A stretch of DNA of 34,315 bases from a bacterium (GTDB lineage Bacteria > Vulcanimicrobiota > Vulcanimicrobiia > Vulcanimicrobiales > Vulcanimicrobiaceae). Below are positions 1 to 18,128 of the stretch, one piece after another. The DNA lies in the NCBI GenBank assembly GCA_021805775.1, contig JAJZED010000020.1, positions 1-34,315 of the forward strand. Direction: 5' to 3'. The notes below the pieces were generated by a model, which saw nothing but the letters and a program-made list of their open reading frames with translations, made no database searches and was not told the origin of the DNA. The translations under genes were made by a program, and so were the position numbers. Numbering within the stretch: the first letter of the stretch is position 1; the number at the start of each line of letters is the position of its first letter.

Positions 1-62
1 TCTACGCGGCGAACCGCGTCTTTCTTGAATTCTTCGCTATAGGTCCGATTCTGCGTTTCCAT
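1..62 (-). CDS. IS3-family transposase OrfA, N-terminal fragment (runs off window)
   Basis: An ATG at 60-62 on the minus strand opens a frame of 20 codons that runs off the window. It reads METQNRTYSEEFKKDAV and continues. The pattern of a short polar start, then Y-S-E-E-F-K-x-x-A-V, is the signature start of the helix-turn-helix DNA-binding OrfA of IS3/IS911-type transposases. OrfA normally binds the element's terminal repeats and is fused to the DDE-catalytic OrfB by programmed frameshifting. The frame differs from that of the drmB read-through. Only the first fifth of the usual length of about 90-100 residues is visible, so the subgroup cannot be assigned. Confidence 0.72.
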   Translation of the reverse strand, partial: METQNRTYSEEFKKDAVRRV

Positions 63-126
63 GACACCTCATTGGCCGGATATTCGCCGGCTCTATCCAA
101 GTGTCCGGGAAACCGGGACAGCCTCA
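1..126 (-). mobile_element. Left end of an IS3-family insertion sequence (truncated by window edge)
   Basis: On the minus strand the sequence changes from drmB to an element beginning about position 126 with TGAGGCTGTCCCGG. This is followed by TTTCCCGGACA, so the end itself is nearly palindromic (TGTCC...GGACA). A transposase OrfA start follows about 64 bp further in. Ends that begin with TG and an OrfA start within about 100 bp are typical of the IS3 family. The other end, the target duplication and orfB lie outside the window. The exact junction could be anywhere in about 120-126. Its insertion replaces the natural 3' end of drmB. Confidence 0.75.
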
Positions 127-1891
127 GAATGCGGTTGTTGCATTCGCAGCTTGTCTCGGGGACAAAGAGGCAACTGTGGCAAGCAGCCCCGTGTTGCGTG
201 CCGTCATCATCGCTTGGTTCGTGCTCGGCGCAGAGTGGGTCCGAGCTGCAGAACATCGCGCGGCGCAGTGCTTCAGTGAGGACACGTTCGAACGTTGCGG
301 TCTCAGCCATCGCCACTAGTCCGCCGAGCGTTCCCTCTGAATCGGGTGCCGCAGTATAGATGAGAATACCCGCCATGGGATCTCCGCCGTTTTCATCGGC
401 GGCATAGATTCGCTCGCGCAACGATGCTGCGTTATAACCGCACTCCAACGCTACTTCGTTCATCAACGCGTGCGAGAGCGAATGGAGCAACACGTAGCGC
501 GTCGCTGGCCAGGCGCGCGGGCCGAACCGATGCAGCACGGCATCGCGGAGCCGTGCGATTCGCGGTTTCGTTTGCGCCGAAGCCTCCCACGCGCGCACAC
601 GCTCCTCGGGCAGTCGAAAAAAGAGGCCTTCGCCGCGAGATTCCACCGCCGGCACCCAATAGGTTGGGCCAACCGTTAGCGGCACGCGATGAACGGCTCC
701 GGGTTCATCGACGGCGGATGGATCGGGTGCGTCGATGCGAGCGAACGCAATCGAAGCGGTCGTCTCGCGCAGTCGCGTCGCTGCAACGACTTGCGCGATT
801 GACGTACTGTGGCGCGCCGGTATCGCGCGTTCGGCGATGGTGAAATCGGCGCCCTCCGTCGAAGCGGAGGGGTTGATAAATTGCAGCCACTCGGGGCGTC
901 TTAAGTCGGCGGCTTCGGCTTGTGAGCGCTCCCCGTTGCGTCGGCGTTCGATCGCCTGCCACAAGTCCGCGATCGAATGAGCGCGCAGCATTTCAAGCGT
1001 GGGATTGAACGTGAGGGCTTGTTCGAGCGTCGCTTCGTCGCGAATCGGAGGGATGTCGAGGTGAACCCAGAGCGTGTCGACATCGTCGTCAATCGCGCCG
1101 CCGGCACCGACGGGGATGAAGAGCGCGCTCAACGTGATACCAAACCAGGTATTCGAGGCGCCAAGTAAAAGCGGTTGTGCCGCTTCGCTACAGCGCTCGA
1201 AAGTTCGCAAATGGGGGTGCCGCCCGCGGCAGGCTGGCCGCTCTTTCGCCGTGCGATCGAAGGCTGCCGCAACGAACGCCGACGCCCCGCAGCCGTGACA
1301 CTTCACGAGTACTTCCGTGGAGCGCGTGCCGCTGCCGGGCTCGGTGAGCTCCAGCGTTCCGCCGCCCGCCGCGCATGGCTTATAGCCGTGCGCAAACTCT
1401 TGCCAGGGAAACTCATCGAGGTGGCCGTTGACGCAGGCCATCACAAAACGCGCGGGGACCGCCGAGGGCGCTTTCCCTTTTCCGCAACCGCGATGTTCGT
1501 AGCGCGCACGCTCGGGATGATATGCGTTCCCTTCGAAGGTGAAGAGCCCACCGTCGATCGTGGAGAGTATGTTGCAACGCATGCAGCGCATCCAGCGCGG
1601 GAACGGGATGACCGGAATCCCAACTTTCGCCCAGTCGTCGAGTGCGTTCCGCGTCTCTTCCTTCCAGGGCATCGCTACCAGCCGCACCACCTGCGGCCCC
1701 AGCGCCGCCTGGACGGCGGCGAGCAGGCGAGGCTCACTCGCCGTTTCCTCCGGGCGATCCCACGCCTGGAGCCCCGCAACCACGACGGCGAAGTTCGGGA
1801 GATCGACGAGCGCGCCGACACCGTATGCGTAGAGCATTTGGCTCGGGCGAATCGCGCCGACGCGCGGATGTAATGAGCTGTTAGCGCTCAT
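2..1891 (-). CDS. drmB: DrmB, DISARM DUF1998 protein, 3' end disrupted by an IS element
   Basis: DrmB works with the DrmA helicase in DISARM anti-phage defence; in studied systems DrmA and DrmB form the core complex. The start chosen is the ATG at 1891 (MSANSSLHPRVGAIRPSQ), which overlaps the drmA stop by 11 bp; an upstream in-frame ATG at 1993 would lie inside drmA. N-terminal Cys pairs (RCMRC, HRGCGKG, CHGCG) suggest a zinc site. The C-terminal DUF1998 region shows LHSLSHALMNE, ILIYTAAPDSEGTLGGL and CHSCLFVPETSCECNN. Just after this last motif, at about 126, the frame enters an IS3-family end and carries on without a stop for about 40 foreign codons to the window edge. About 588 residues are native. 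The family usually continues a short way past this motif, so probably only a short native tail is lost. Whether the product still functions is unknown. Confidence 0.88.
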   Translation of the reverse strand: MSANSSLHPRVGAIRPSQMLYAYGVGALVDLPNFAVVVAGLQAWDRPEETASEPRLLAAVQAALGPQVVRLVAMPWKEETRNALDDWAKVGIPVIPFPRWMRCMRCNILSTIDGGLFTFEGNAYHPERARYEHRGCGKGKAPSAVPARFVMACVNGHLDEFPWQEFAHGYKPCAAGGGTLELTEPGSGTRSTEVLVKCHGCGASAFVAAAFDRTAKERPACRGRHPHLRTFERCSEAAQPLLLGASNTWFGITLSALFIPVGAGGAIDDDVDTLWVHLDIPPIRDEATLEQALTFNPTLEMLRAHSIADLWQAIERRRNGERSQAEAADLRRPEWLQFINPSASTEGADFTIAERAIPARHSTSIAQVVAATRLRETTASIAFARIDAPDPSAVDEPGAVHRVPLTVGPTYWVPAVESRGEGLFFRLPEERVRAWEASAQTKPRIARLRDAVLHRFGPRAWPATRYVLLHSLSHALMNEVALECGYNAASLRERIYAADENGGDPMAGILIYTAAPDSEGTLGGLVAMAETATFERVLTEALRRAMFCSSDPLCAEHEPSDDDGTQHGAACHSCLFVPETSCECNNRILRLSRFPGHLDRAGEYPANEVSWKRRIGPIAKNSRKTRFAA

Positions 1892-4800
1892 CGTCGCCTT
1901 CGTCAAAATCTTCATCCTCGGCGTTGGGCGCAATGGTGGGGGCGCCGACACCCGTCGTGAGCCGATAGGGTTGTGCGTCGTCGATACTCGCATCGTCGAC
2001 GGCGAGCAAGAGGTTCACGTTGTGCTCGGTTTCGCGCAGAGAATTCGGCGCCGACCAACGGCCCCAGCGGCGTCGCCCCGGGCGTTCGAGCAGCGCTTTT
2101 CTTTTCGCCCCGCCGCCGTACGAGAGCGGTGCCTGATGGCGCAGCGCGCTACGTTGCCGGTCGAGCCAGATATCGAGCAACTCGTCGGCGCGGCGACGGA
2201 CCTCTGCTGCGACGCGCGGATCGGGATGTACGTGCGCGGCACGGCGTTCGATAACATCGACGACCGCGCGAACGCTGCGTTCGACGAGCGGTGCCATTTG
2301 CGCGGCTTCGTCGGGATTGAGCGACATTCCGAGCGGTAGGTGTGCGTTTTCGTGGCGGACGATTCCCACGATAATCGCGGTCAACGCGCGGTCGAGGGAG
2401 CGGCTCGAAAACGGCGTCAGCGAGAGCGGTTCGACTTGCCGATAAAATGTTGCGTGATCGAATTCGAAGCGCTCGTAGTGCGAAAGATCGCGTGGCCGCG
2501 CCCAGTTGTAGAGCGTAAAGACGATACCGGGTTTATTTCCCTCGCGCCCGATACGGCTGGTCGCTTGAATGTATTCCGCCGTGGATTTCGGCTGTCCGAC
2601 AACCATCATGAGTCCCAGGCGTGGTACGTCGACGCCGACGGAGACCATATTCGTTGCGAGGACGACATCGAAGGGGCCGTTAAAGCTGCTGCGCGCGCCG
2701 GGTGTAAAGCCGACGGTGAGCCCGTCAAGCGTTTTCGGAATCTCGCTCGAACTCATGCGGCTCGTCAGTTCTTTTACGGTCAACGATGTGGAGCGCTTCC
2801 CCAAACCGCGCGTTGCCGCCATCGAAAGGCGCTGTCGCACGTCGTCGTCGACGAGCCGGCGCATGCCGGCGAGTTCGCGAAGGGAGCTGAAATAATCGAG
2901 CATCGTCATATAGGGATCGGCTGCCTCGCCGTAAAGGTCGAAAACCTTCTGCGCGGCGGCAAGGATTGAAACCGACATGCGTGCCTCGGCAGCCTTCAGG
3001 CGCTGCCCGCGCGCACAAACACCGACATAGAGCCGGCCGGGCGCCGCTTGCGACGGTGGCGTCTCGTGCGCAAAAAACGTTTCGCCTGCGTCGAGCACCG
3101 GCGGTGGGAAGAGACTTAAGCGGCGAGCGAAAAGCGCGTTGGCCTGTGTCGCTGCGCGGCGAATGGTTGCCGTAGAGGCGACGACCTTCGGGCGGACGGT
3201 GATGCCGCCGATGCGCACCGACGCGAGATGGTCGATGGCGGTTTCGTAGAGGCCGGCGAGCGTTCCGAGCGGGCCGGAGATCAGGTGTAATTCGTCCTGA
3301 ATGATGAGATCCGGCGGGCGCAATCGATTGCATGCAACCGTTTTGTGAGGCGGCAAGGAGCCCGCCGCATTATGCCGGTCGTTCTCTTCGCATCCGGAGG
3401 AGCGGTCGAGATCGAGCGAGCGAAAGCCGTGCCGCTCGCAGCGCTGGTAGGTGCGCCCGAAGAGTAGATGCATCGGCCCGAGCCACGGCAGGCGCGCAAA
3501 CTTATCGATCGTCGCGATGAGGAACGCCGGTAAGAGCCGGTACACTTCTTCATCGGTTGTGACGACCGGAATTCCCTCACCGGGCGAGCGCTTCTGCGTG
3601 AAGGCACACGCGCCGAAGGGATCGGAGCAGTAGAGCAGCGAGCGCCAGCGCTGCTTATCGGGTTTTACATCGCGCCCAATTTGTAGCGTCGCGCCGCACC
3701 ATGGACAGGCGGCGAGTTGGAGCGGGTTGGCGTAGCCGCCGGTGTATCCGCCGCGCTGACGTGCGGCCTCGACCGCATCGAGCGAGCCCTTAAAATAATT
3801 CGGCGTCGTGTTCTGCCCGATCCAGAGGCCGAGGCGAAACGGCGTCGTTCCCCAACGCGTGTCGGCGACAGCCTTATCGCGGCGCAGTACCTCGCAAGCA
3901 CAGATGAGCGCCGAGGCACGGGCGAATTGCTGCGAAGTGAGGAGGCGCAACGTGTAGCGCATGAACACCGCGACGCCCTCGGAGCCGTCGAGCGGGCCAT
4001 CCTCGCTTTCGATCGTGCCTTGCAAGCGCCGGATCGCCAGCGTGAACGCAACGAGGCCGAGATAGGCCTCCGTTTTTCCGCCGCCCGTAGGGAAGAAGAG
4101 CAGATCGACGACGGCGTCGTCGCCGGATCGTTCGCGGTGGCGTGGATCGACGAGCGAAGGCAGATTGAGGCAGATGAATGCGAGCTGAAAGAGCCGCCAC
4201 GAGCGATTCGTCGGCTCGTCGGCGTTGCGAATGAACTCTTCGAGCGGCGGAACCGCGTCTCTCTCTTCGTCGGAAGTTGCCGCATCCGCGATGCTGCGAC
4301 GCTGCGCGATTGCAAGTTGCCGGATGCGCTGCTGCCACATGGCCTCGTTGGCAAAGCGAAACGCCTCGGCGGCGTCGGCATCGTTTGCCAGGATGGCGAT
4401 GCCTGCTTCAATGCGCGTTGCAATGGTTCGTGCTTGGGCGATTGCGTTGCGCGCGGCCTCTTCGTGCCCGGCGAGCCGATGCGCGGGATCGGCGATGCGT
4501 CGCTCCTGTGCGTCGATCCAGTCTCGGTAGGCGGTAACGATCGGTTGAAGCCGTTCGCGAAATCGTGCATCGGGCGTTGCGGCGAGCACGGCCATGTCGC
4601 GTTCGAGCGGCGCGAGCAATGGGTTCTCCGCGACATTCGGCTGGTCGGTACGCGCGAGTTCGTAGGTCGGAACGTTGCAGGTGGCGATCGACACGGCGCG
4701 GCGCTCCTCGCCGAGCGCGCGCTCGGCGCGAACCGCGACGCCGTGGCCGACTGCGAACTCGGGCGCGTCGCGATAGAGCATGGCGAGTTGCGCGCGCTCC

Positions 4801-5471
4801 CCATCGGTTTCGTTCTGCATCTGCTCGGAATGACTGCGCTCGAGAAAAATGGGGCGCCCACCGGGATCGCGGACAGTGAGTTTGGCTTGGAATAACCAGC
4901 GCTCGTCGGCATTTTTTTTCGTGGAAGTTTGCTCGTTGACGAGAAAGAGTGTTACCAGCCAACTGCCGTCGTCTCGCTGCCGAGCGCGTCCGCGAACGAC
5001 CACGGCAGATTGCTCGTCTACGGGCGCGGCCGCTTCGATGTCGCCTGCAACGAGCGGTAGGAGCGCGACGCCTTCGCGGGGATAGCGTTGCCACACCGAA
5101 AGCGTTTCCTTATCGGCATCGCTTCGTTCCTTGCGGTAATGCCCCCAGCTCGCGCGGACTTCGATCTCGGTTGCGCTCGCATCGACGACGAAACTCAAAC
5201 CAAGCGATGACGGGAAGAAGCCTACCGCAGCGCTGCGGTCGCTCTCCGCTCCTTCCTCGTCCTCGCCGTCAACGTTGCTTGCTTCGTCGAAGCGCGCCGG
5301 GTCGGTGCGAACATCGCGTGGCGCGAGCATGCCGACAAGGTAGCGATCTCGAATGTATGGTCTCGCGGGCAACGTCTCGCGCGGCCCAAATGCCGGCCCG
5401 TGGAGATCGCCGATTACGAGCCGCTCGAACTCATCACGGATTTGCCAGGGCGATGCAGCGGCAACAGCCAC
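1881..5471 (-). CDS. drmA: DrmA, DISARM superfamily 2 helicase
   Basis: The 1196-residue protein is the DISARM helicase, which in studied systems binds DNA together with DrmB. Visible motifs are Walker A PTGGGKT ending at K466-T467, a DELH Walker B box (D726-H729) within IIQDELHLISG, the coupling motif ASTATIRRA, and a helicase C domain with NMVSVGVDVPRLG and QATSRIGR near residue 970. A CPWCG/C zinc-like cluster lies between the two helicase halves. Length and motif order fit DrmA. The gene starts 2 nt after the stop of an XRE regulator gene and overlaps drmB by 11 bp, so the three are probably co-transcribed. No inactivating change was seen. Confidence 0.93.
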   Translation of the reverse strand: MAVAAASPWQIRDEFERLVIGDLHGPAFGPRETLPARPYIRDRYLVGMLAPRDVRTDPARFDEASNVDGEDEEGAESDRSAAVGFFPSSLGLSFVVDASATEIEVRASWGHYRKERSDADKETLSVWQRYPREGVALLPLVAGDIEAAAPVDEQSAVVVRGRARQRDDGSWLVTLFLVNEQTSTKKNADERWLFQAKLTVRDPGGRPIFLERSHSEQMQNETDGERAQLAMLYRDAPEFAVGHGVAVRAERALGEERRAVSIATCNVPTYELARTDQPNVAENPLLAPLERDMAVLAATPDARFRERLQPIVTAYRDWIDAQERRIADPAHRLAGHEEAARNAIAQARTIATRIEAGIAILANDADAAEAFRFANEAMWQQRIRQLAIAQRRSIADAATSDEERDAVPPLEEFIRNADEPTNRSWRLFQLAFICLNLPSLVDPRHRERSGDDAVVDLLFFPTGGGKTEAYLGLVAFTLAIRRLQGTIESEDGPLDGSEGVAVFMRYTLRLLTSQQFARASALICACEVLRRDKAVADTRWGTTPFRLGLWIGQNTTPNYFKGSLDAVEAARQRGGYTGGYANPLQLAACPWCGATLQIGRDVKPDKQRWRSLLYCSDPFGACAFTQKRSPGEGIPVVTTDEEVYRLLPAFLIATIDKFARLPWLGPMHLLFGRTYQRCERHGFRSLDLDRSSGCEENDRHNAAGSLPPHKTVACNRLRPPDLIIQDELHLISGPLGTLAGLYETAIDHLASVRIGGITVRPKVVASTATIRRAATQANALFARRLSLFPPPVLDAGETFFAHETPPSQAAPGRLYVGVCARGQRLKAAEARMSVSILAAAQKVFDLYGEAADPYMTMLDYFSSLRELAGMRRLVDDDVRQRLSMAATRGLGKRSTSLTVKELTSRMSSSEIPKTLDGLTVGFTPGARSSFNGPFDVVLATNMVSVGVDVPRLGLMMVVGQPKSTAEYIQATSRIGREGNKPGIVFTLYNWARPRDLSHYERFEFDHATFYRQVEPLSLTPFSSRSLDRALTAIIVGIVRHENAHLPLGMSLNPDEAAQMAPLVERSVRAVVDVIERRAAHVHPDPRVAAEVRRRADELLDIWLDRQRSALRHQAPLSYGGGAKRKALLERPGRRRWGRWSAPNSLRETEHNVNLLLAVDDASIDDAQPYRLTTGVGAPTIAPNAEDEDFDEGDDER

Positions 5472-5473
5472 GG

Positions 5474-5884
5474 TTAGGGCAGCCGCTTTGAGGTGCGCCC
5501 GGTTTTGGGCGGCTGTGCGCCGCCTAATTCCGCGAAGACCTTCACGAGGTGCTGCTTTCTCCTGCGCGTTTCGCGTGGCAACATGAGTGGAACGACGTCG
5601 CAGTCAAGTGCATCGGCGACGCGGACGATACGTTGAAATTTTGCACGACTCAGCCCCCCGCTTAAATCGCGGGACACGAGTGCTTTATCGGCGCCCAAAC
5701 GCGCAGCAAGTTCGCTCGAGGAGACGTGCGCTTCTTCCATCGCTCGGTGGATTTGATGTTCGAGTGAGAATACCGCCGCCATCTCCGTAATGCGCGCCGC
5801 TCGTTTAGTGGAGCTCGCTCGTACGCGCTCCATCAGGGTGGTCCCGCCACGGCGTCGATGTGTCGGTTTATTTGTCTCGGTCAT
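5474..5884 (-). CDS. XRE-type helix-turn-helix protein, likely antitoxin, in operon with drmA
   Basis: This is a 136-residue basic protein. A helix-turn-helix spans about residues 45-90: EEAHVSSSELAARLGADKALVSRDL, then a recognition-helix-like stretch, then VADALDCDVVPLML. This layout matches the small XRE/HigA-like antitoxins paired with RelE-fold toxins. It begins inside the end of the RelE-like gene (17 bp overlap) and ends 2 nt before drmA. The inferred role is to neutralise the toxin and repress the shared promoter at 6301-6330, which would also set drmA-drmB levels. It could instead be a dedicated DISARM regulator. Its long Arg/Lys-rich tail (residues about 105-136) is unusual for a plain antitoxin. 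Confidence 0.78.
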   Translation of the reverse strand: MTETNKPTHRRRGGTTLMERVRASSTKRAARITEMAAVFSLEHQIHRAMEEAHVSSSELAARLGADKALVSRDLSGGLSRAKFQRIVRVADALDCDVVPLMLPRETRRRKQHLVKVFAELGGAQPPKTGRTSKRLP

Positions 5885-6302
5885 AGTAGTGCAGGCCTTT
5901 CACCGCTCTATGGTAATCCTGATGCTGTCGCAGTGCGCGCTCGATCGCTCTGTCGCCACGCTTGTCGCGTCTTTGGCTCTGCTTTGCGTATGGTGGCCCG
6001 CAGACGATCCACGCGTTCGATCCGTCGGCGTGAAAGACTGGGTAACGCAATTTGCCGACCTTGATTGCGAGGATCAGCGGATCCCCCAACTCGACGTTGA
6101 GTTGGCTTGGCGACAAACGATCACCGAGTCGCAAGTTGCCCCACGCTTCGAGGCGAGCGAGAAACTCGATTTGGTTCGCTGCCGTCATGCGTTCGAATGC
6201 GTCGAGCCCAGGCATCTCTCCGTTGTCGTTCCAATACCACTCGAAGACGCGCTCCGCTCCTTCGTGGATCACGAGGTTCTCGATTGTTCGTCTCAGAGGC
6301 AT
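5868..6302 (-). CDS. RelE/HigB-like toxin (Gp49-like family)
   Basis: The 144-residue protein carries the late signature of HigB/Gp49-like RelE-fold toxins, which are ribosome-dependent mRNA endonucleases. It shows a helical stretch with FERMTAANQIEFLARLEAWG, then strands ILAIKVGKLRYPVF and NAWIVCGPPYAKQSQ, then a C-terminal helix RAIERALRQHQDYHR. The order toxin then XRE antitoxin with overlap supports a toxin-antitoxin pair. The ATG at 6302 has no Shine-Dalgarno sequence and overlaps the -10 box of the best promoter, so translation may really start at the GTG at 6272 (codon 11). Catalytic residues vary in this family and were not pinned down. Confidence 0.7.
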   Translation of the reverse strand: MPLRRTIENLVIHEGAERVFEWYWNDNGEMPGLDAFERMTAANQIEFLARLEAWGNLRLGDRLSPSQLNVELGDPLILAIKVGKLRYPVFHADGSNAWIVCGPPYAKQSQRRDKRGDRAIERALRQHQDYHRAVKGLHYYDRDK

Positions 6303-6330
6303 GATAGCACGCAGTTGATTCTAGTGTCAA
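6301..6330 (-). promoter_or_regulatory. Promoter of the RelE/XRE-drmA-drmB unit with overlapping palindromic operator
   Basis: Minus-strand TTGACA (6325-6330), an 18-nt spacer and TATCAT (6301-6306) make a near-consensus sigma-70 promoter. A palindrome GTTGATTCTAGTGTCAAC (6314-6331; arms GTTGA/TCAAC around CTAG) covers the -35 box and half the spacer, where an autorepressing antitoxin would bind. Transcription would begin near 6294, inside the annotated ATG of the toxin gene, favouring a downstream start. Confidence 0.6.
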
Positions 6331-6452
6331 CTTGCTCGTAGATCGATTGGCGCGATATGGTTCCGTCGACTCGTCGTCCATTCATGAATCGAGCCTATCC
6401 GAGCAGACTGCCAACTGGCTGGCACTATGCGGAGGTAATGGAAACTCTCATT

Positions 6453-6911
6453 TTAAGAGAATCCGGCGCCGACCAACTCGCGGCCCTCCGTCGGCGGACG
6501 CAGAACTATCTCGATGCTCCCACTGAGCGCTTCAATGATCTCCTGGGCACGCTGAAGCGTGATTCCATAGTACTCATGCCGCTCGTCGCGCGAGACGAGG
6601 CTTTCGTCTACGCCCAGCATGGAAGCTAGGTTGCGTTGAGAGACGCCGCTCGCGATGCGCAGGGCGATGAGAAGCCGGCCGACTTCCTGTAAATTCGAAA
6701 CTGCCTGAAAATCTCCGCGTCGCACGCTCTCGTACCATTCAACTTCTTCACGAAGCTGTAAATGGAACGAAACTTCTGCTTCGAGGACACGGCCGATTTG
6801 CTCGGCGCTGAGTCCCTCGCGTACCAACGCCTCCCGTTTTTCCTTAAGGTGGGCGTCGTCATCTTTGAGGCGGCGTACTGCCGTGTTGTAGGCTTTATCG
6901 GTTTTAATCAT
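6453..6911 (-). CDS. XRE-family helix-turn-helix protein with N-terminal coiled coil
   Basis: This is a 152-residue protein. Residues 1-60 are charged and helical (MIKTDKAYNTAVRRLK, then EKREALVREGLSAEQI), probably a coiled-coil dimer or partner-binding arm. Residues about 75-140 are an XRE HTH: VGRLLIALRIASGVSQRNLASMLG, then VDESLVSRDERHEYYGITLQRA. It overlaps the upstream nucleotidyltransferase-like gene by 8 bp, so the two form a coupled pair. The small size and two-gene layout with a strong private promoter suggest the regulator or antitoxin half of a toxin-antitoxin-like module. A free-standing transcription factor is the alternative. Confidence 0.75.
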   Translation of the reverse strand: MIKTDKAYNTAVRRLKDDDAHLKEKREALVREGLSAEQIGRVLEAEVSFHLQLREEVEWYESVRRGDFQAVSNLQEVGRLLIALRIASGVSQRNLASMLGVDESLVSRDERHEYYGITLQRAQEIIEALSGSIEIVLRPPTEGRELVGAGFS

Positions 6912-7473
6912 GGCGTTGGTGCTCCCGAATAATTTTCACGATGCCTTTTTGTCGGCCTGTATCCCGCTCGCGACGAAAGGCAGCCGGGAACTGCAACTCG
7001 TTCCCGTGTTCGTCGCGGATTCCGGAACTCGTCGTGCGAGCGTTTGCGTGCGGATAGAGCTCCACGCGGTATATGTGCCACATCGGTAACTGGAGTTTGG
7101 TGGAAGAATGGTCTGGGCGTCGCGCGGATGACGCCCACGTCCAACAGCGATGCGGATCGAGTTCATTGAGTGCCTGCTGAAGATCGCCCGTTGCAAGCTC
7201 CATGAGTTTGCACTCGAAATAACCGTCGATATCGTTTGGTTTCGGCTTATTTTCGACGAACGAGCCGTCGATGAAAATGTTCGTGACGCCCACTTGCCAC
7301 AACTGGTCGACAAGAATACGAAGGTTTTGTGCGAGTTGCTTCCGGGTCTTCGTCGCCCAGGACTCGCCGGGAACGCCCACGACAAGGTGAGAGTTTTCTA
7401 GCTCATCGAGCGTCAGTTCGTAGTCTCCGGGCGGCAGTAGCCCGTCCGAATTAAACGGCGGTATTTCCGGCAC
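6904..7473 (-). CDS. Nucleotidyltransferase-like protein (resembles DUF6932), partner of XRE protein
   Basis: A GTG start at 7473 is chosen because AGGAGG ends 4 nt upstream (7478-7483) and the promoter at 7493-7521 makes the more upstream ATG at 7512 untranscribed. The 189-residue product begins VPEIPPFNSDGLLPPG, a start I associate with DUF6932 proteins. It contains IFIDGSFVENKPKPNDIDGY, which fits the nucleotidyltransferase pattern G-S-x(n)-D-x-D of MNT-type enzymes. The C-terminal stretch FRRERDTGRQKGIVKI is the other recognisable conserved piece. Such proteins occur as halves of toxin-antitoxin or abortive-infection pairs, where they may nucleotidylate a partner or tRNA. The activity here is inferred. 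The XRE gene follows with 8 bp overlap. Confidence 0.7.
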   Translation of the reverse strand: MPEIPPFNSDGLLPPGDYELTLDELENSHLVVGVPGESWATKTRKQLAQNLRILVDQLWQVGVTNIFIDGSFVENKPKPNDIDGYFECKLMELATGDLQQALNELDPHRCWTWASSARRPDHSSTKLQLPMWHIYRVELYPHANARTTSSGIRDEHGNELQFPAAFRRERDTGRQKGIVKIIREHQRHD

Positions 7474-7492
7474 AGCCCCTCCTGGTAAGGCT

Positions 7493-7521
7493 AGAATAGG
7501 CGCGTATGACATATAAGTCAA
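7493..7521 (-). promoter_or_regulatory. Promoter for the nucleotidyltransferase-like/XRE pair
   Basis: Minus-strand TTGACT (7516-7521), a 17-nt spacer and TATTCT (7493-7498), placing the start about 14 nt before the GTG with a strong AGGAGG between. The -35 box sits inside an AT-rich imperfect inverted repeat (ATATA...TATAT, about 7511-7527), a plausible site for the XRE partner. Confidence 0.6.
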
Positions 7522-7659
7522 GTATATTGGCTCGCTCGTACAACCCGCGGGCGGCGAAAAGCACTGTGCCAGGCATATGGCATAGTGCCGCTCTTCCATA
7601 TCGGTGCGACGCCATATTTGTTAGGCGTTGGCGCAGTCTAGCAATCGAAGGAGAACAAT

Positions 7660-8808
7660 ATGCTTTCACGTCTCACCGGAATCACGGTCGCTGTCATCGG
7701 ATTCCTCGGCGTCGCGGGGTATACCGCGTTATCAATCTACCTTTCAGTTTTCGGCCTTGATTCTTCCATAGCGACGTTCGGTCAATATGGCTTCGTCCAC
7801 TTCGGCATCCTCGTGCTCGCTGCGCATGAGCCGTCGGTCGTCGCGATCATTTCCATTTTCATTCTCCTCGCGTATCTGAGTTTTCGACAACGCGCTGCCG
7901 ACGCGCCGTACGACACCGTTATCGTGAATCGTGGCAAGCGGCGAATTTCTTTTGGATCATACATGCAGAATGTCTTTTCCGATGAATGGTGGCGACGAAA
8001 GGTGCTGACCTTCCTTGACGTTATGCAGCTGGTGATGTTAGTTGTCCTATTAGTTTTTGGCGCAGTCGCTGGCGAGCAATACGGGGAAAACATGGCAAAC
8101 AGCACGATTCATGGTGTGGCGTTGGTTGAGAACCCGAATGTTAGCATTCCAGAACGTGTCCACTTAAGGTTTAACAAGGCTGCGAATCCGTCTCCGATGC
8201 TGAAAAACGCGAATCGCCTGGGCAGGCTAAGCGTGGTGTGGACAAGCCGCGACGTTATTTCGGTCACGGCAATAAGCAATAAGCCCATGGGGAAGAAGTT
8301 CGTTGTCAGGACGTGGAGCATCCCGCTCGCCACTGTTGCGCAGGTCGATCGCGTTCGCACCTATAGCCGCGGATCGGCTAAGACGGCATCGAAGGCCAGC
8401 GTTGATTGGTTCTGGGTGGCTTTCACCCTCGCAATGTCGCTCGTAATCGTCTTTGCTCTGCTAGGAGATTACCTTCGGCGACGCGACGCGTGGGATCGCA
8501 TTGAGCCCTTAGACAAGGGCTGCCCGCTTGACGTCGAATTTCCTGACGTTATCGCCGATCGTGCAAGCTGCGCCTTAGCGCTAGGAAAGGACCTACGAGT
8601 CGTTTCCTATGATGGCGACGAACGTTCTCTCTCCGTGGTACGAAACAGCGCCTTCCCGGTTGGGCATCGAATTAGGGTGACGCACGCATACAAGAATCCG
8701 CTTAAGGAACTTGTTGGCGAATTTCGGAAACTTGCGCGACGCTTCGGGCTAGATGTCGCGAGTTCGAAGGACGACAGGGAAATAAAGGCGTCATCAGCCG
8801 CTCGTTAA
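7660..8808 (+). CDS. Predicted multi-pass membrane protein of unknown function inside the DISARM island
   Basis: I do not recognise this 382-residue protein. The ATG is preceded by AAGGAG at ideal spacing. Hydrophobic segments at about 8-31, 55-73, 118-141 and 262-284 predict four membrane spans. A polar domain between spans 3 and 4 (residues about 142-260) and a C-terminal soluble domain (about 285-382) follow. It is the only plus-strand gene inside the island, ends convergently with the HEPN-like gene, and lies in the AT-richer patch. Membrane proteins embedded in defence islands are often effectors that damage the membrane, but nothing in this sequence proves that. A passenger gene is equally possible. 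Confidence 0.72.
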   Translation: MLSRLTGITVAVIGFLGVAGYTALSIYLSVFGLDSSIATFGQYGFVHFGILVLAAHEPSVVAIISIFILLAYLSFRQRAADAPYDTVIVNRGKRRISFGSYMQNVFSDEWWRRKVLTFLDVMQLVMLVVLLVFGAVAGEQYGENMANSTIHGVALVENPNVSIPERVHLRFNKAANPSPMLKNANRLGRLSVVWTSRDVISVTAISNKPMGKKFVVRTWSIPLATVAQVDRVRTYSRGSAKTASKASVDWFWVAFTLAMSLVIVFALLGDYLRRRDAWDRIEPLDKGCPLDVEFPDVIADRASCALALGKDLRVVSYDGDERSLSVVRNSAFPVGHRIRVTHAYKNPLKELVGEFRKLARRFGLDVASSKDDREIKASSAAR

Positions 8809-10714: not shown

Positions 10715-10884
10715 GCGAATTGCTCTCCTCGAATCGAGTTGTGGCATCGTTTGTCGAATTGCTGAAGTTCAAATGCGTGGTCCGCCTTTTGCGCCGAACG
10801 AACGAGAACGGATTGTAGGGTGGTGTCGCTTAGGAATTCGCGAAAATCGTTAAGGGTTTTCCTGCCGATTAGCGCTCTTGGCAT
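10711..10884 (-). CDS. Small coupled ORF (57 aa) between drmMI and the nuclease-like gene
   Basis: The ATG at 10884 shares its A with the TAA stop of drmMI (TAATG), and the ORF's own TGA overlaps the next gene's ATG (ATGA). Such double coupling is unlikely by chance. The product is 57 residues (MPRALIGRKTLNDFREFL, then SVLVRSAQKADHAFELQQF), basic at the start, probably helical, without membrane segment or Cys pair motif. No family is recognised. It may be a small accessory subunit or only a translational bridge. An ORF frame from 10923 that includes it is longer but would lie inside drmMI. Confidence 0.55.
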   Translation of the reverse strand: MPRALIGRKTLNDFREFLSDTTLQSVLVRSAQKADHAFELQQFDKRCHNSIRGEQFA

Positions 10885-13800
10885 TACATCGAGTCTGTCA
10901 GGGATAATTGCTTCGGGGGGCAACTCTCGGGCTTGGCCTTCCGTGGCTTCTTTCCGTTTCGCGTGGTCGGCTCAATGCGGTCGCTTGCAACTTCTTCGGC
11001 GTGGCGTGCTTGGTTAAGTTCGAGCAGGCGGTCGAGAATTTCGACAAGGACCGGTGGCGAGATAGTCCAGCGCTTTCCTTCGTCGGTCTCATGGAAGCCA
11101 TACGCGAGGTCTAGATCGGTCCAGCCATACGCATCGCAGACTGCTCGATCGAGTTCTGCGTGCGCGTCACGCAATGTCCCGATATCGGTGTCGCGATCCG
11201 CCGGGGCGTGAATGCGATTGTAGAGTTTGGTTAGACCAAGATTGCGCGATGCCATCATGTCTCGGCGGAACGAATCGAGCCGCGTCATGATTTCGGCGAC
11301 GCGGGCTTCCTCGGCGTTTGGGAACGGGAATGTCTCAAAGCAATCGCTGGGCGTATATCGTGTTCTCGTCTCAAGAGAGCTGCCTCGGCGTCGCGCCCAC
11401 GCGCGGTGGAGGTTTGAGGTTAGGAAACCGAACGTTGCCGGTCTTTCCGTCGCGATGACCGCAACTGCGTGAGAAAAAACTATCCTGGTGGGATACATGA
11501 GGGGAAGCACGACCTTGCTCACAAGCGGCATGACGATGGCATGCCCTTCTTCAGCGATCGCTGTGTATAGCTCAGAGGCTGGGCGCGTAAAACGCCACCA
11601 CATTTCGCGTCGGCTCCTATCACGGTTTTTTTCACGTTCCGGTTTGACGCGTTGGCGAACAATGCTCATTGCATCGGTGTATCCCTCCGCGCGTTCGAGT
11701 GGCCAGTCGAAGAAGCTAATCACCCAACGACTGGGGCTCGCGTCCGGGCGCGAACAGAGATCTTCTGCATTCAGATACGGGAAGAGCACGTCGCGGTTGC
11801 GAGGGTCCCGTGCGATGAGCGCGGCGGCGTCCTCCGGCGTCATCGTGAACCCCATGCCGAGGACGTACGAGCCAATAAAGGCCTTTCTCGCATTTGCGCG
11901 CAGCCGAAATGGATTCCGCTGCACTCGCGTTCCGGGGAGTAGGAGCGGTGAGATCGTGCTGACCTCGACGCCGTCGAGAACAGCCGGCGTGACCGTTGCC
12001 ACGCCCGAGGCCCTCTGTTTGGACTGGTGTACAGCGCCAACGCCGATAATAGGCGGCGGCGCCTCGAGCCACACCTGTGCGATGTGAACGCCGGCGGCAC
12101 CGGGCCAGGGGCGGCTCGGAACCGCGCGCGCGATGCGCCAACCGCGCCCCACGAGCGCATCGAGCCCCACCTCGCGCGTATCGCCCTGCGCGATCGTATT
12201 GACTGCGAGGAACGCGAAGCGTTTGCTCAGCTCAGCGGCTCGCAGAAAGAAGTAGGCGACGAGATCGGCGCTTCCGCGGCGCCCCGCCGCAAGCTCTCGT
12301 ACCAAATACTGCCGGAAATCCGTACCGAGATTCCCAGTGATCAGTTGCCCACCCATAAAGGGCGGGTTGCCGATCATCAGGTCGAAGCCGCCGCGGCGAA
12401 AAATTTCAGCAAACGCGAGCGGCCAGTGAAACATGACTCTGCCCTGACGCTCCGAGCGCAATCGTTCGATCGCCGCGCGGCGATCGAGTTCGGTCGCATG
12501 CGGATCGAGCGCGGCGCGAATCCGCGCGCCCAGTTCGAGAAACGCCGCGTTCCGTTTTTTCTCCGCTTGCCCGGCGGTTGCAAGCGCGGTCAGTGCGATC
12601 GCATCGGCAACGACATTGACGCGGTCGAGGACGCCGTCGGCCTCTTCGTTGAGTCGGCGCTTCGCCTCGGCATCGCGCACCGTGCGGGAGGGCAGCGCTT
12701 CGAGCCGTTCGCGCAGTTGAACGGCCTCGTCGACAAGTTTCGTAACCACCTCGGTCGCATCGAAGAGCGCTCCGTCGTAGAGCGCACGCCCCGCCTCCGG
12801 GTTCGTATGCACGTAGCGAACTTGATCGAGCGAGGAAAGGCCGAGTAGCGAGTCGCCGTGGCGGATGGCGTGGTCGAGGAAACTAAATGGCCGTTCGCGG
12901 CCGAGTGTGACGAGCCAGAGTGAGAGCTTCGCCATCTCGACCGCCATCGCGTCGCGGTCGACGCCATAGAGGCAGCGGTCGACCACCGCGCGCCGAGCGT
13001 CGAGGGTGAGCTCGTCGCGATCGACGCGCGCGCGTTCGGGCTCCTCTTCGATCCACGCTTCAACGACGCGGTCGGCAAGATAGCGACAGGCTGCGACGAG
13101 GAAAGCGCCCGAGCCGACGGCGGGATCGCAGATGCGCAGATTCAGGAGCTCGGCCGATGAGCGCAATCCCGGTGTATAAACCAATGGCTCGAGCGCATAG
13201 CGCACCATCTCTTCTGCGAGCTCGCTGGGAGTGTATTCCGTCCCCGAATCGCGGCGCGCTCGCGTTTTTTTCACCACCAGGCTCCCGGCGGCAAAGATGG
13301 CCGGAAGATCGTGCAAGTCGGTGTCGAGGCAGTAGACGATCGGCGCGACGCGGTCGGCTAGCCGGGCATCGTTTCCACACGCGGTCTTCAGGCGGCGGCG
13401 CATCTGCGGATCGTCGGTGACCTTGCGCCCGCGTTCGATCCGCTTTCTCACGCTGCCCGCGCTTTTTTTCGTCGTGTCGACGAGAAACGAAACGAGCTTC
13501 TCTTCGCCCTCGCCCGCGGCGCGTTCGAGATCGTGCAGCGGAATCTCGGCCTCATCGCCGGAGCGCCCGACGAGGCGCACGTATACGTCGTCAACGCGCT
13601 CCGCGCCATGGTCGAGCAGGCCTTCATAGACGCGGCCGATCTGTTCGACATCGAGCGTGCGATACGAGAGGCGGCGGCGCGCATTTGCACCGGGCTCGGC
13701 GATCGTTTGGATCGCTTCGAGAATCGCGCGAACGGTGAGATCGTCGACCGAAAACGTATCGAGAAAAGCAAACCGCTGCGGGTCGAAGAGGCGTCCGCCA

Positions 13801-14855
13801 TAGGCAGGCAGCCGCAGGCGATCGTGTGCGATGCCGAAGTAAATTGCGCGGAAAAGTGCGAGCAAGCGTTGCCACGCCGCACTACGCCGCTCGAGCGGTG
13901 CGTCGCCCTCGATACTCGCCTGCTCCTCGAGTTGTTCGCGCAACCTCGATGCGGCATAGTGCTCGGCGTAGAGCGGTTCATCGAGCGGGAGCAGATGTCG
14001 CTCCTCGGCGTAGAGCAAAAAGACGAGGCGCATCAGAACAGTGACCGCAGCTTCGTAGACCTCCTGCGGAGAGGTGTCGTGCAAAAGCGCTCCTTGGCGA
14101 TCGAGATTCGCGCTCGAGATCGCACCGACGAGCAACTCAACCGCTTGGCGCACCTGATACCCCAGCCGGTCGGTGACCTCACTCTGTTTTCTCGCCGACT
14201 CCTCGAAGAGCGCCTCGATCTGCTCCTTCTCGGCGACGGCGAAGAAACGCGCCGCGCCAAAGAGGCTCAAGAATGCGCGCAGCACCTCGCGTTCGGCGCC
14301 TTCGAGAAAGAGCGCGGTCTCCCAGGTGGCGTGGCCGCCCGGGCCATTGGCCGGAACCCAGAGCGTGGCGATGCGTTCGCCATCGGTGACGATGCCGATG
14401 CGGATATCGTGCGCGCGACAGAGCTGCGCGGCGCGGTCGAGCGGTGAGGCGTTCCAACGCTCCCCCGCGATTCGTTTCTCCAACGGCGTACCGTGCGGAA
14501 AGCGGAGCACGAGAACGCGCGCCTTTCCGCACTCCGGATCGTCGAGAATCGCGTCGGCGCAGAACTCTATTGCGTGCTCGGGTATCGCGAGGCTGTAGCG
14601 TGCGGCTGCCTCACCGGTGCGAAAACGCTCGCCCCATCCTAATGCACCGCGCATCAGCCAATGCAGCCATGCGTCCCACGCAGCTTCGTCGTCCGTCGCG
14701 GGATAGCGCGCGTGGAGAGCGTCTCGGATCGCGTTCGGCAGCGTCTCGAAACCGTGCGGAAAGGCTTGGCGCAAAACCGGCGTGGTGAGGAATTGTCCCT
14801 CCGGATCGATGAGCCGCAGCCACGCGGAATCTTCGGCACGTCCTCGCGCCCTCAC
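10884..14855 (-). CDS. drmMI: DrmMI, DISARM class 1 N6-adenine DNA methyltransferase
   Basis: The 1323-residue protein is an Eco57I/type IIG-like adenine methylase. It has SAM-binding motif I DPAVGSGAF (D577-F585), a following YGVDRDAMAVEMAKLSLWL, and the catalytic NPPF tetrad (N830-F833) of N6-adenine methylases. A C-terminal recognition-like part contains RYTPSDCFETFPFPN, and a large helical N-terminal region precedes the methylase. In DISARM, modification marks host DNA as self. The start is a GTG at 14855 overlapping the drmD stop (GTGA). The protein ends in KQLSLTDSM, a weak resemblance to a sliding-clamp-binding peptide. Methylation target cannot be read from sequence. Confidence 0.92.
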   Translation of the reverse strand: MRARGRAEDSAWLRLIDPEGQFLTTPVLRQAFPHGFETLPNAIRDALHARYPATDDEAAWDAWLHWLMRGALGWGERFRTGEAAARYSLAIPEHAIEFCADAILDDPECGKARVLVLRFPHGTPLEKRIAGERWNASPLDRAAQLCRAHDIRIGIVTDGERIATLWVPANGPGGHATWETALFLEGAEREVLRAFLSLFGAARFFAVAEKEQIEALFEESARKQSEVTDRLGYQVRQAVELLVGAISSANLDRQGALLHDTSPQEVYEAAVTVLMRLVFLLYAEERHLLPLDEPLYAEHYAASRLREQLEEQASIEGDAPLERRSAAWQRLLALFRAIYFGIAHDRLRLPAYGGRLFDPQRFAFLDTFSVDDLTVRAILEAIQTIAEPGANARRRLSYRTLDVEQIGRVYEGLLDHGAERVDDVYVRLVGRSGDEAEIPLHDLERAAGEGEEKLVSFLVDTTKKSAGSVRKRIERGRKVTDDPQMRRRLKTACGNDARLADRVAPIVYCLDTDLHDLPAIFAAGSLVVKKTRARRDSGTEYTPSELAEEMVRYALEPLVYTPGLRSSAELLNLRICDPAVGSGAFLVAACRYLADRVVEAWIEEEPERARVDRDELTLDARRAVVDRCLYGVDRDAMAVEMAKLSLWLVTLGRERPFSFLDHAIRHGDSLLGLSSLDQVRYVHTNPEAGRALYDGALFDATEVVTKLVDEAVQLRERLEALPSRTVRDAEAKRRLNEEADGVLDRVNVVADAIALTALATAGQAEKKRNAAFLELGARIRAALDPHATELDRRAAIERLRSERQGRVMFHWPLAFAEIFRRGGFDLMIGNPPFMGGQLITGNLGTDFRQYLVRELAAGRRGSADLVAYFFLRAAELSKRFAFLAVNTIAQGDTREVGLDALVGRGWRIARAVPSRPWPGAAGVHIAQVWLEAPPPIIGVGAVHQSKQRASGVATVTPAVLDGVEVSTISPLLLPGTRVQRNPFRLRANARKAFIGSYVLGMGFTMTPEDAAALIARDPRNRDVLFPYLNAEDLCSRPDASPSRWVISFFDWPLERAEGYTDAMSIVRQRVKPEREKNRDRSRREMWWRFTRPASELYTAIAEEGHAIVMPLVSKVVLPLMYPTRIVFSHAVAVIATERPATFGFLTSNLHRAWARRRGSSLETRTRYTPSDCFETFPFPNAEEARVAEIMTRLDSFRRDMMASRNLGLTKLYNRIHAPADRDTDIGTLRDAHAELDRAVCDAYGWTDLDLAYGFHETDEGKRWTISPPVLVEILDRLLELNQARHAEEVASDRIEPTTRNGKKPRKAKPESCPPKQLSLTDSM

Positions 14856-17800
14856 GCCCGTCGCGCTCCAAAGATGTCAAGGTTGACGCCGGCTAGATGC
14901 CGAGGAACGAGAAACGTGACCGCGGCCGGGAATGCGATGTCGCGCGGGTCTCTATAGCGGCGCCGGAGACGCTCGGTCTCGCGGTCGATTTCCTCGGGAA
15001 TCTCTTCGAGTCGGCGTCGGAGCGCGGCAAGATCGCTGTTGACCTGCCCGCGCTCGCTGCTGTTATTGGCATCGAATAGGCTGAGTTGCTCGGAGCGTCC
15101 ATGCTCGGCCGCCTCTAATTCACGCGAAATCGCGGCGTGGAGTTGCATCATCACCGTGCGAAGCGAGGTTTCCTCGCTTGTGGCGCGCTCGGTCAGCATG
15201 CGCATCATGCGGTCGTGCAGTTCGGCTGCGCGTGCATTCATGGCGGCGAAGAGCGGATCGCGAAGCCGATCCCACGCCTCGGCAATCTCCTCTTGGTGGT
15301 GAAGGGGGAGTTGTTCGTCGCCGTGCGCCGCGAGTGCCGCTCGCGTCTCGCCGACGTTTAACCTCGCAAAACCGCCGCGGCCGCCGAGGCGCCCACCTGC
15401 GGCGAACAGTTGCTCGTGGAGGCGGTAGCCATCACTGCCCATGATGACCAGCCGCGCATCGAGAATTACCGTTGGCTCGGCGAGGTCCGCGTCGTCGACG
15501 AGACGCCCGGTGACGCGCGCTAACTTCGCATCGCGGGTGCGCGCCCATATTTCGGCGCGCAATAAGCGCATTGCTTGCATTACCAACGGATGGCCGAGGT
15601 GCGCGAGCACGACATCTTCGCGGTCGCTTGAGCCGGGGTTATCGAAGGTGATCGGCAGCCGCTTCTCGGTGAGCGGATGGTAGAGATTCTCACACGCCGA
15701 CGCCCAGGATCGCGTCAGATCGGGCACCGTGTAGGCCGCGAGCGGCGGGCCCGCAGAATGCGACGGCGGAAGCACGATCGGTTCGAGCGGAGACTGTCGG
15801 CCGAGTTCGAGCCCTACCTGCACGACGCGTTCGATCGCATCGGGCGTAATGCCGAGCTCGTCGATCGAGGTGAGGACGCGCTGATGCATCTCGTCGACCC
15901 GCTCGCGTAATTCGCGCTCTGCTTTTAGTACGGTGACGGAATCTCGCGGCTTTACTTTAATCGTATTAAGGTCGCTCGGGCGCCCGAGCATAGCATTCTC
16001 GACCTCGGCCGCGAGAACTGCGCCTGCCGAACCGAGATCTTGGCGGATCGTCTCCAACTTCGTTGCGGCACGGAAGAGGAAATCGAGATCACCCTCGAGC
16101 GTGCCCGCATTTTCTCCGTAGCCCGATCCGACGAAGTGATAGACAAATACCTTCGGTTGCGGTTGGCCATGCCGGTCGATGCGGCCGTTGCGCTGTTCGA
16201 GCCGATTGGGATTGAAGGGAATCTCGACGTGAATCATGCGAGCGCAATGACGCTGCAGATCGATCCCCTCGCTTGCGGTATCGGTTGCCAAGAGGATACG
16301 CACCGGGTCGTTGGCCGGGTCGCTCTGGAATGCCGCTTTAATGCGCTCGCGTTCTTCGGTATCCATGCCGCCATAGAGTAAGCGCACGCGATTGCCGCCG
16401 AGCCCTTCGGTGACGAGTAACCGATGCAGCCATGCCTGCGTGTCTCGATATTCGGTGAAGATGATGACACGCTCGTCTCCGAACGTACGCAATTGGGCGA
16501 TTAAGGCCCGAGCTTTTTCATCGGCTCGCTGCGCGTTGCTCTGTGCCCATGCGTGCATGCGCTCGAGTAGCGCACGTTGCTCGGTGTCGAGGGGGTCGGA
16601 GGCACGTGCAGCCCGACCGAGGAGATCGCGCTCGGCTTCTTCACGGTCTTCATCGGTGTCGTAATCGTCGGCGAGGCGATCGAAAGCGTCGCGGAGGCGC
16701 TCGAGGTCGTCTTCGTTTCGTTGCGTCGAGAGCGTGCTCATGTGTGCGGCGAGCGTACCTGCGAATGCAGCGGGCGACGAAAAGAGGCGTTTTTTCAAAA
16801 GCAACGTGATGAGATCCGTGGCGTTAGCGCCCTTCTTCGACGAGGCTCGCGCGCGCCGCAAACGTGCGTATTCCTCGAGCATCGCATGAATATCGCGTTC
16901 GCTCTGCGGATACGACACTTCGATTTTTCCCAGAATGCGCTCGGGGAAGCGCGGCGTGCCGTCGGGGGCCGGCCCAAGCGCACGAATATCAGCCTTCATC
17001 CGCCGAATTTGCGCGTTCTGCAACGCGAGTGGGTCGGGCTTGACGCCGCGCGCAAAGCGCTGCGGGTCAAGCAGCTCGAGTAACGAGGTGAAGGAGATCG
17101 CATATCCGTTATGCGGCGTCGCCGAGAGAAAGAGCCGATGCTCGGAGTGGGGAGCGATGTATCGGAGCAGTGCCGTCCTATCCGACGGCCGAGCGTACGT
17201 GCCTTTGCCCGCCGGAGCGCACTGGTGCGCCTCGTCGACGACGAGCATATCGATCTTACGGGGGTATGCGTTGCGGTCAGGCGGAAGAAATTCGTGCAGC
17301 AACCGCATGGGGCGTTCCATTTTCAGCCAATCGAAGCTGACGATGAGGCGGGGAAAATGCCCGAAAATGTTGGCGTGGAGTCCGCGCTCGCGGCGAAGCA
17401 GGCGGACGGCTTCGGCGTCGACGATCCGAAATTCCAAGCCGAAACGGTTCTCCATCTCGGCCTTCCACTTCAGGCAGAGCGATGGTGGGCAAAGTACCCA
17501 CGCAGTTCGCACGCGGTGGCGCAGGGTCAGTTCTTGGATGATGAGACCGGCTTCGATGGTTTTGCCCAGCCCAACGTCGTCGGCGATGAGGAGATTGACG
17601 CGGGCCATTTCCAACGCGCGTACGACTGGGTCGAGTTGATAATCCTCGATGGTGATTCCCGAGCGAAACGGCGCCTGCAGCGTGCGGAGATCGGCCGAGG
17701 CGATCGCGCCCCAGCGGACGGCGTCGAGGAACGTGCGCAAGCGTTCGGGGGAGTCGAACTCGCCGGCGCGCGGAGTGGGAAGGCTTCCCGTTTCGCGGAT

Positions 17801-18013
17801 GTTGGTGCCCGGCTCGATCTCCCAAACGACGGTCAGTTCGTCCCCGAGACCGTCGTCTTCGACCGAGGAGAGCTCGACGAGGTGTTGCCGCTGCTCGCTT
17901 GCTGCGATATCGAGCGGCAGTGCGCTCGGGACGACCGTTTTAACGACCCAAAAACGATCCCGGACCGAGACAAGTTGCCCCTCTTCGGGGGCCGGCGGCG
18001 CCGCGAGCAGCAT
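14852..18013 (-). CDS. drmD: DrmD, DISARM class 1 SNF2-family helicase
   Basis: The 1053-residue SNF2/RapA-like ATPase is the marker of class 1 DISARM. It has Walker A DDVGLGKT (D145-T152), DEAH (D260-H263), motif III LFLSATPHNG, and a helicase C domain with TDTASEGIDLQRHC and EQRNGRIDRHGQ. The C-terminal 250 residues are largely helical and coiled-coil-like. They include QLSLF (Q976-F980), identical to the canonical bacterial beta-clamp-binding pentapeptide and to the one at the end of DinB in this window. It is the first gene of the minus-strand DISARM unit and overlaps drmMI by 4 bp. No good promoter was found in the 115 bp before it. Confidence 0.93.
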   Translation of the reverse strand: MLLAAPPAPEEGQLVSVRDRFWVVKTVVPSALPLDIAASEQRQHLVELSSVEDDGLGDELTVVWEIEPGTNIRETGSLPTPRAGEFDSPERLRTFLDAVRWGAIASADLRTLQAPFRSGITIEDYQLDPVVRALEMARVNLLIADDVGLGKTIEAGLIIQELTLRHRVRTAWVLCPPSLCLKWKAEMENRFGLEFRIVDAEAVRLLRRERGLHANIFGHFPRLIVSFDWLKMERPMRLLHEFLPPDRNAYPRKIDMLVVDEAHQCAPAGKGTYARPSDRTALLRYIAPHSEHRLFLSATPHNGYAISFTSLLELLDPQRFARGVKPDPLALQNAQIRRMKADIRALGPAPDGTPRFPERILGKIEVSYPQSERDIHAMLEEYARLRRARASSKKGANATDLITLLLKKRLFSSPAAFAGTLAAHMSTLSTQRNEDDLERLRDAFDRLADDYDTDEDREEAERDLLGRAARASDPLDTEQRALLERMHAWAQSNAQRADEKARALIAQLRTFGDERVIIFTEYRDTQAWLHRLLVTEGLGGNRVRLLYGGMDTEERERIKAAFQSDPANDPVRILLATDTASEGIDLQRHCARMIHVEIPFNPNRLEQRNGRIDRHGQPQPKVFVYHFVGSGYGENAGTLEGDLDFLFRAATKLETIRQDLGSAGAVLAAEVENAMLGRPSDLNTIKVKPRDSVTVLKAERELRERVDEMHQRVLTSIDELGITPDAIERVVQVGLELGRQSPLEPIVLPPSHSAGPPLAAYTVPDLTRSWASACENLYHPLTEKRLPITFDNPGSSDREDVVLAHLGHPLVMQAMRLLRAEIWARTRDAKLARVTGRLVDDADLAEPTVILDARLVIMGSDGYRLHEQLFAAGGRLGGRGGFARLNVGETRAALAAHGDEQLPLHHQEEIAEAWDRLRDPLFAAMNARAAELHDRMMRMLTERATSEETSLRTVMMQLHAAISRELEAAEHGRSEQLSLFDANNSSERGQVNSDLAALRRRLEEIPEEIDRETERLRRRYRDPRDIAFPAAVTFLVPRHLAGVNLDIFGARRA

Positions 18014-18128
18014 ATCGGCCTAGATATGGTGTGCGATAAGGCGAGGCCTGCCGATAGTATTGCGGTTCTCGCAGCGAGGCTCCGGCGCACGATTGACGCC
18101 TGTCGCGCAACGTGCAACAGTAGCCATT

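Follow-up and report, generated by a model that had tools for sequence, protein, structure and literature searches.

The window, that is, the whole stretch of DNA analysed here, is contig C25 (34,315 bp) of the 2.59 Mb genome G000 (Eremiobacterota). It carries a class 1 DISARM (defence island system associated with restriction–modification) locus, in which a putative toxin–antitoxin (TA) pair, a toxin gene followed by an XRE-family gene, stands directly before drmA and drmB. The reading that fits best, and one which we consider fairly probable, is that the pair is an operon repressed by its own XRE protein and that this operon runs on into drmAB. According to it, a HigBA-type operon of an Eremiobacterota-specific family would have been captured once into class 1 DISARM, directly before drmA, and toxin, XRE, drmA and drmB would be transcribed as a single unit. 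The XRE protein, probably together with the toxin, would bind a palindrome upstream of the toxin gene to repress its own transcription, and drmA, starting 2–3 nt after the XRE stop codon, would be made by coupled translation. DrmAB would then be supplied at a low, self-adjusting level, and more strongly as the labile antitoxin falls, with a presumed benefit for defence. The features concerned are the following:

5868..6302, minus strand, gene for a HigB-fold toxin of 144 aa (AlphaFold model, invariant active-site positions, ratio of non-synonymous to synonymous substitution rates, dN/dS)
5474..5884, minus strand, gene for a putative XRE-family antitoxin/autorepressor of 136 aa with a Cro/C1 helix-turn-helix (HTH; PF13443, 27.1 bits, cut-off 22)
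1881..5471, minus strand, drmA, DISARM helicase (PADLOC DrmA, E-value 3.6e-279; GTG start)
2..1891, minus strand, drmB (PADLOC DrmB, E-value 3.3e-64; Pfam MZB, 2.8e-12; ATG at 1891, open frame to 1993)
6314..6331, no strand, putative operator palindrome GTTGACACTAGAATCAAC, kept before the toxin gene throughout the family, 26 to 36 nt from the start codon
6301..6330, minus strand, promoter-like TTGACA-18-TATCAT (11/12 consensus positions; 9/12 in genome G110 and 10/12 in genome G062)
6318..6323, minus strand, candidate alternative −10 TAGAAT inside the palindrome (weak −35, 8/12 overall)

The identity of drmA and drmB is certain. An earlier note on this DNA had described the four genes as contiguous, and its open reading frames (ORFs), their order, strand and distances were all confirmed: toxin and XRE overlap by 17 bp, the XRE stop is followed after 2 nt by the GTG of drmA, and the end of drmA (1881) overlaps the drmB start (1891) by 11 bp. 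No evident Shine-Dalgarno sequence precedes drmA.

The same note had called the toxin RelE/HigB-like, which holds for the fold, a HigB/RelE (BECR-type) one, but not for sequence profiles. The AlphaFold (AF2) model of the toxin (predicted local distance difference test, pLDDT, 88; predicted template modelling score, pTM, 0.85) has its best Foldseek match in Streptococcus pneumoniae HigB (6af4; E-value, 1.5e-4), with HigB1 as the next. Structural comparison gave Z 14.4 over 112 residues at 1.7 Å for 6af4 and Z 12.8 for Mycobacterium tuberculosis HigB1 (7awk), and other RelE-type toxins scored Z 8.5 or less. At the sequence level, the toxin had no match among the Pfam, NCBIfam, PHROG and PADLOC models, the curated HigB/RelE/Gp49 profiles matched neither it nor its 13 relatives beyond chance, and a sequence search against solved structures returned no significant match. 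Thus, the toxin is a fold-level relative of HigB outside the existing Pfam families, and its family is undescribed at the profile level.

Residues K81, R86, Y105 and K107 are invariant across 14 toxin sequences, and their spacing matches that of the HigB active site. Residues R68, R73, F90 and K92 of S. pneumoniae HigB are important by mutation (PMC7984235); judged from spacing rather than from residue-level superposition, the four invariant positions would correspond to these, with two active-site substitutions (R to K and F to Y). Purifying selection acts on both genes of the pair, with dN/dS of 0.19–0.23 (NG86) or 0.25–0.35 (YN00) for the toxin and 0.10–0.18 (NG86) for XRE. From its sequence and model, the protein is predicted to be toxic. 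The anatomy of the pair (HigB fold, HTH partner, overlapping genes, conserved operator) supports its assignment to type II TA systems. As in HigBA of S. pneumoniae (6af3/6af4) and HigB1 of M. tuberculosis (7awk), the toxin gene comes first, the partner is an HTH antitoxin and the operator is palindromic; unlike in known HigBA, the identity is 12–17%, Pfam and NCBIfam give no match, and the operon continues into drmA-drmB.

Relatives of the toxin are present in 17 of 149 Eremiobacterota genomes, nearly all with an XRE partner and mostly away from drmA. Among public genome contigs, 11 toxin loci were found, all in metagenome-assembled genomes (seven named Candidatus Eremiobacterota, four only "bacterium"), and those that could be matched were loci already found within the phylum; a search of plasmids and phages returned none. 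The toxin–XRE family was found only in Eremiobacterota and is usually standalone. The window genome itself has a second toxin copy, 44% identical, on contig C12 away from DISARM. An HTH antitoxin gene follows the toxin in all family copies but one weak match (G044). Those copies in the phylum that are not linked to DISARM consist of just the two genes, and for about 200 nt past XRE no further gene follows in the same direction. The exception is G031, in which such a gene lies 98 nt past XRE and the toxin is broken.

The toxin–XRE–drmA arrangement occurs in four genomes of two genera. The drmA gene starts 2–3 nt after the XRE stop in G000, G110 and G062, and likewise in G067, whose contig shows XRE–drmA and breaks off within the toxin gene. 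The DISARM-linked pairs fall into one clade (support 100/99), the nearest relative of which is the pair of G059; a single clade of this kind argues for one capture before drmA. Nine other drmA loci examined in the phylum, including that on contig C15 of the window genome, are without the pair, some of them beginning near contig ends.

The putative operator was found before the toxin gene in 16 loci. In the window it is present as a single copy, and no further copy with ≤2 mismatches was found in the whole genome. It is an imperfect palindrome (7/9 pairs symmetrical) and, taken in isolation, stands out only slightly from shuffled sequence (p 0.04). It rises above chance because it is conserved in G059 despite a diverged flank: 16/18 positions are identical between G000 and G059, while the preceding 91 bp are 24% identical, which is the chance level, and the toxins are 54% identical. 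This contrast is the best evidence that the XRE protein may bind there. In addition, the operator half-site and the recognition helix of XRE change together through the family, a helix of the (D/G)KAxxSRDL type going with the half-site TTGAC (GTTGAC...TCAAC), and one of the KPxxxSRDL type with TTAAC-type half-sites.

An autorepressed TA promoter, overlapping this palindrome and controlling the DISARM core, had been proposed in the earlier note. The TA anatomy with its palindrome, and the lack of a sigma70-like site within the TA genes, support the proposal in part, but the promoter as drawn is not confirmed. Its −35, TTGACA, is the left arm of the operator, so the promoter match and the palindrome are not independent features. 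Its −10, TATCAT (6306–6301), overlaps the toxin start codon (6302–6300), the position of which is kept (ATG in G000, GTG in G110 and G062; M1 is invariant in the family alignment), and therefore this promoter cannot give the full-length toxin. A shorter toxin starting from a GTG at codon 11, which would rescue the promoter, was rejected as a general solution, because codon 11 is GTC in G110 and the family conserves the ten residues before it. Use of the alternative −10, TAGAAT, would leave a leader of 8–10 nt and keep the start codon in the message. In G059, where drmA does not adjoin the pair, the operator arm is followed by 17 bp, TAGACT, 6 nt and GTG, an arrangement that fits a leaderless message; the distance from the palindrome to the start codon is 7 bp shorter in the DISARM clade than in G059. 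Other clades, as read by eye, have a TTGNNN box just upstream of the palindrome and a −10 overlapping its right arm.

Between the toxin start and drmA, no sigma70-like site of at least 8/12 was found in G000, G110 or G062, and so the separate promoter immediately before drmA, which the earlier note had set against its own proposal, was not seen in these three genomes. With no site inside the TA genes or before drmA, drmAB most likely depends on upstream transcription. A plus-strand ORF (7660–8808) breaks the minus-strand series upstream of the gene for a DUF6932 protein and a second HTH gene, XRE2; thus, drmAB transcription probably starts after this ORF, at DUF6932–XRE2 or at toxin–XRE. Control by XRE, the simplest reading, is likely; XRE2 may be in control instead, or both proteins may take part.

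Several points weigh against the repressed TA operon as the source of drmAB transcription. Transcription from TATCAT would begin about 7 nt into the toxin gene. The sigma70 consensus used for the promoter scan may miss the promoters of this phylum. The co-directional DUF6932–XRE2 unit has its own palindrome and is followed by no terminator-like site, so drmAB may be driven from there. Finally, a structural study of another DISARM proposes that its DrmAB is autoinhibited and made constitutively (PMC9142583), which speaks against DrmAB having to be induced.

The TA pair may instead be a passenger at an accessory-gene hot spot between drmMI and drmA, with drmAB transcribed from an internal promoter or through read-through, a possibility that we regard as doubtful. 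On the minus strand, the series reads drmD, drmMI, accessory genes, DUF6932, XRE2, toxin, XRE, drmA, drmB, and the two outer DISARM genes are:

10884..14855, minus strand, drmMI, class 1 DISARM methyltransferase (PADLOC DrmMI, E-value 0, 1522 bits)
14852..18013, minus strand, drmD, SNF2-like helicase (from ORF, size and position; homologous to the gene preceding drmMI in G110 and G091)

Contig C11 of G000, which has the other end of the island, begins with a drmC-type phospholipase D gene. The locus thus has drmD, drmMI, drmA and drmB, which define class 1 with drmC optional, and all five genes of the class (drmD-drmMI-drmA-drmB-drmC) are represented; it departs from the class in that drmMI is separated from drmA by two HTH-linked pairs and 4 kb of accessory genes. 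Inserts at this junction are seen in plasmids too, for which 24 DISARM or DrmA loci, a small sample from the top of one BLAST list, were judged by eye: about half of the 20 class 1 loci with drmMI in view hold an insert there, mostly other than TA (ATPases, GIY-YIG, XisH/I). The mostly standalone occurrence of the TA family also agrees with a passenger, as does the cargo between drmMI and DUF6932, which differs between G110 (HerA-like) and the window (other genes). However, the pair has stayed fixed 2–3 nt from drmA in four genomes while this neighbouring cargo turned over, and the scan of three genomes offers no promoter-like site past the toxin start.

In the same plasmid sample, a TA or HTH/PIN-looking pair stands directly before drmA, co-directionally, in 5/24 loci. 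Planktothrix has a VapB-like and PIN pair 9 nt before drmA, and Thiodictyon an MqsA-family antitoxin with a SecB chaperone, preceded by a 106-aa protein. In Methylocystis, Sinorhizobium and Acidibrevibacterium (Alphaproteobacteria), an XRE/M78 protein and a PIN-looking protein form one conserved unit that overlaps drmA by 1–4 nt:

L118:2849-4477, L124:2957-4579 and L127:3031-4666, XRE/M78 and PIN-looking pair at the drmA start on three alphaproteobacterial plasmids

The PIN-looking label comes from reading the sequence, and this partner has no Pfam or NCBIfam match. One further plasmid locus has BrnT-BrnA between drmB and drmC; the drmD–drmMI and drmA–drmB junctions, where visible among the 24 loci, had no TA pair. 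In IMG/VR, 17 DrmA loci, mostly of other DrmA classes, had no such pair where the upstream region was readable. A literature search, which did not take in the original 2018 DISARM paper, found no description of a TA before drmA. Tentatively, unrelated TA families may have been recruited repeatedly as promoter-proximal genes that set or switch DrmAB, and the Eremiobacterota promoter may have slid into the toxin start, favouring an antitoxin–drmAB message over the toxin. As the drmMI–drmA junction also accepts other inserts, part of the TA pattern may be a plain hot spot.

The earlier note had taken the promoter before the toxin for the only clear one, which does not hold, because a second palindrome with a promoter-like match precedes DUF6932–XRE2:

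6453..6911, minus strand, XRE2, second HTH gene (HTH profile matches; 87–89% identical in G110 and G062)
6904..7599, minus strand, DUF6932 gene, PADLOC candidate PDC-M63A (DUF6932, E-value 3.3e-32; PDC-M63A, 1.8e-11), the true start being probably at about 7512
7493..7521, minus strand, palindromic promoter-like element TTGACTTATATGTCA... before DUF6932–XRE2 (TTGACATTTATGTCAA in G062), kept in G000, G110 and G062
6408..6425, no strand, palindrome GTGCCA(A/G)CCAGTTGGCA(C/G), near-perfect GTGCCAACCAGTTGGCAC, between XRE2 and toxin, kept in three genomes

That drmAB is driven mainly from this promoter, with XRE2 as the main regulator and the toxin–XRE promoter secondary, is improbable. Such control would agree with the TTGAC...GTCA palindrome, which has promoter-like spacing in all three genomes, with retention of the DUF6932–XRE2 pair in these genomes, and with the 150 nt between XRE2 and toxin. 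On the other hand, the presumed DUF6932 start codon falls within the 7493–7521 palindrome and the −10 lies inside the presumed frame, which makes the start site uncertain; moreover, the conserved 18-nt palindrome between the two units could mark their separation. The outer pair of the latter is G-C in G110 and C-G in G062, and no T tract follows it.

It is highly improbable that the TA acts as a guard, protecting the island by killing cells that lose it. TA pairs commonly stabilise mobile DNA, and the island does look mobile. The 3' end of the Rieske ferredoxin gene (18428–18733), which adjoins sufB, is duplicated over 152 bp (90%) at the two flanks of the island: window 18428–18579 is repeated beyond drmC in G000 (C11:1700-1851), G067 and G062. 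In G063, G064 and G065, of the same genus, the island is missing at this site. The flanking duplicate and the island-free relatives indicate that the DISARM island is an inserted element. However, the G062 contig, which runs from the Rieske/sufB side through DUF6932 remnants, XRE2, toxin and XRE to drmA, retains intact toxin, XRE and XRE2, although its drmA has several frameshifts and has been joined to the end of drmC through a deletion, drmB is gone, and the locus lacks drmD and drmMI. Since DISARM has decayed while the TA has stayed, the drm genes are not kept in place by the TA; cells can lose DISARM by itself, as the antitoxin has no need of the drm genes. Simple guarding of the drm genes, as the earlier note had suggested, is thus unlikely. 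CreTA, which guards CRISPR-Cas, is RNA-based and needs Cascade for toxin repression (PMC9458426, PMC10097628). The present pair resembles it in being linked to a defence operon but differs in that no dependence of toxin repression on a DISARM protein is visible and the TA outlives DISARM.

At the island edge, a HigA-family antitoxin gene (18060–18425, plus strand; TIGR02607, E-value 9e-32) was also observed. It is apparently without a HigB partner, and the empty-site relative G064 seems to retain one.

A parallel to control of drmAB by XRE is RptR, a small DNA-binding repressor that controls an Escherichia coli defence island holding the TA DarTG2 (PMC12255303). There, the promoter is under a dedicated repressor instead of an antitoxin, and a Type I restriction–modification system surrounds the TA (PMC12255303). 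Little work has addressed what turns DISARM on or holds it at a safe level. If an antitoxin serves as operon repressor, the amount of a broad anti-phage helicase would follow the state of the cell, and the unrelated TA pairs recurring at one junction offer a comparative series on TA as regulators of larger defence systems.

Two further observations concern other defence genes. The window genome has a second, divergent drmA-drmB (34% and 31% identical; G000:C15:7900-13000, locus L058). In G110, an anti-phage HerA-like ATPase (L053:6169-8037; NF042944, E-value 4e-69, below its cut-off) occupies the interval between drmMI and DUF6932, which in the window is filled by three unrelated accessory ORFs.

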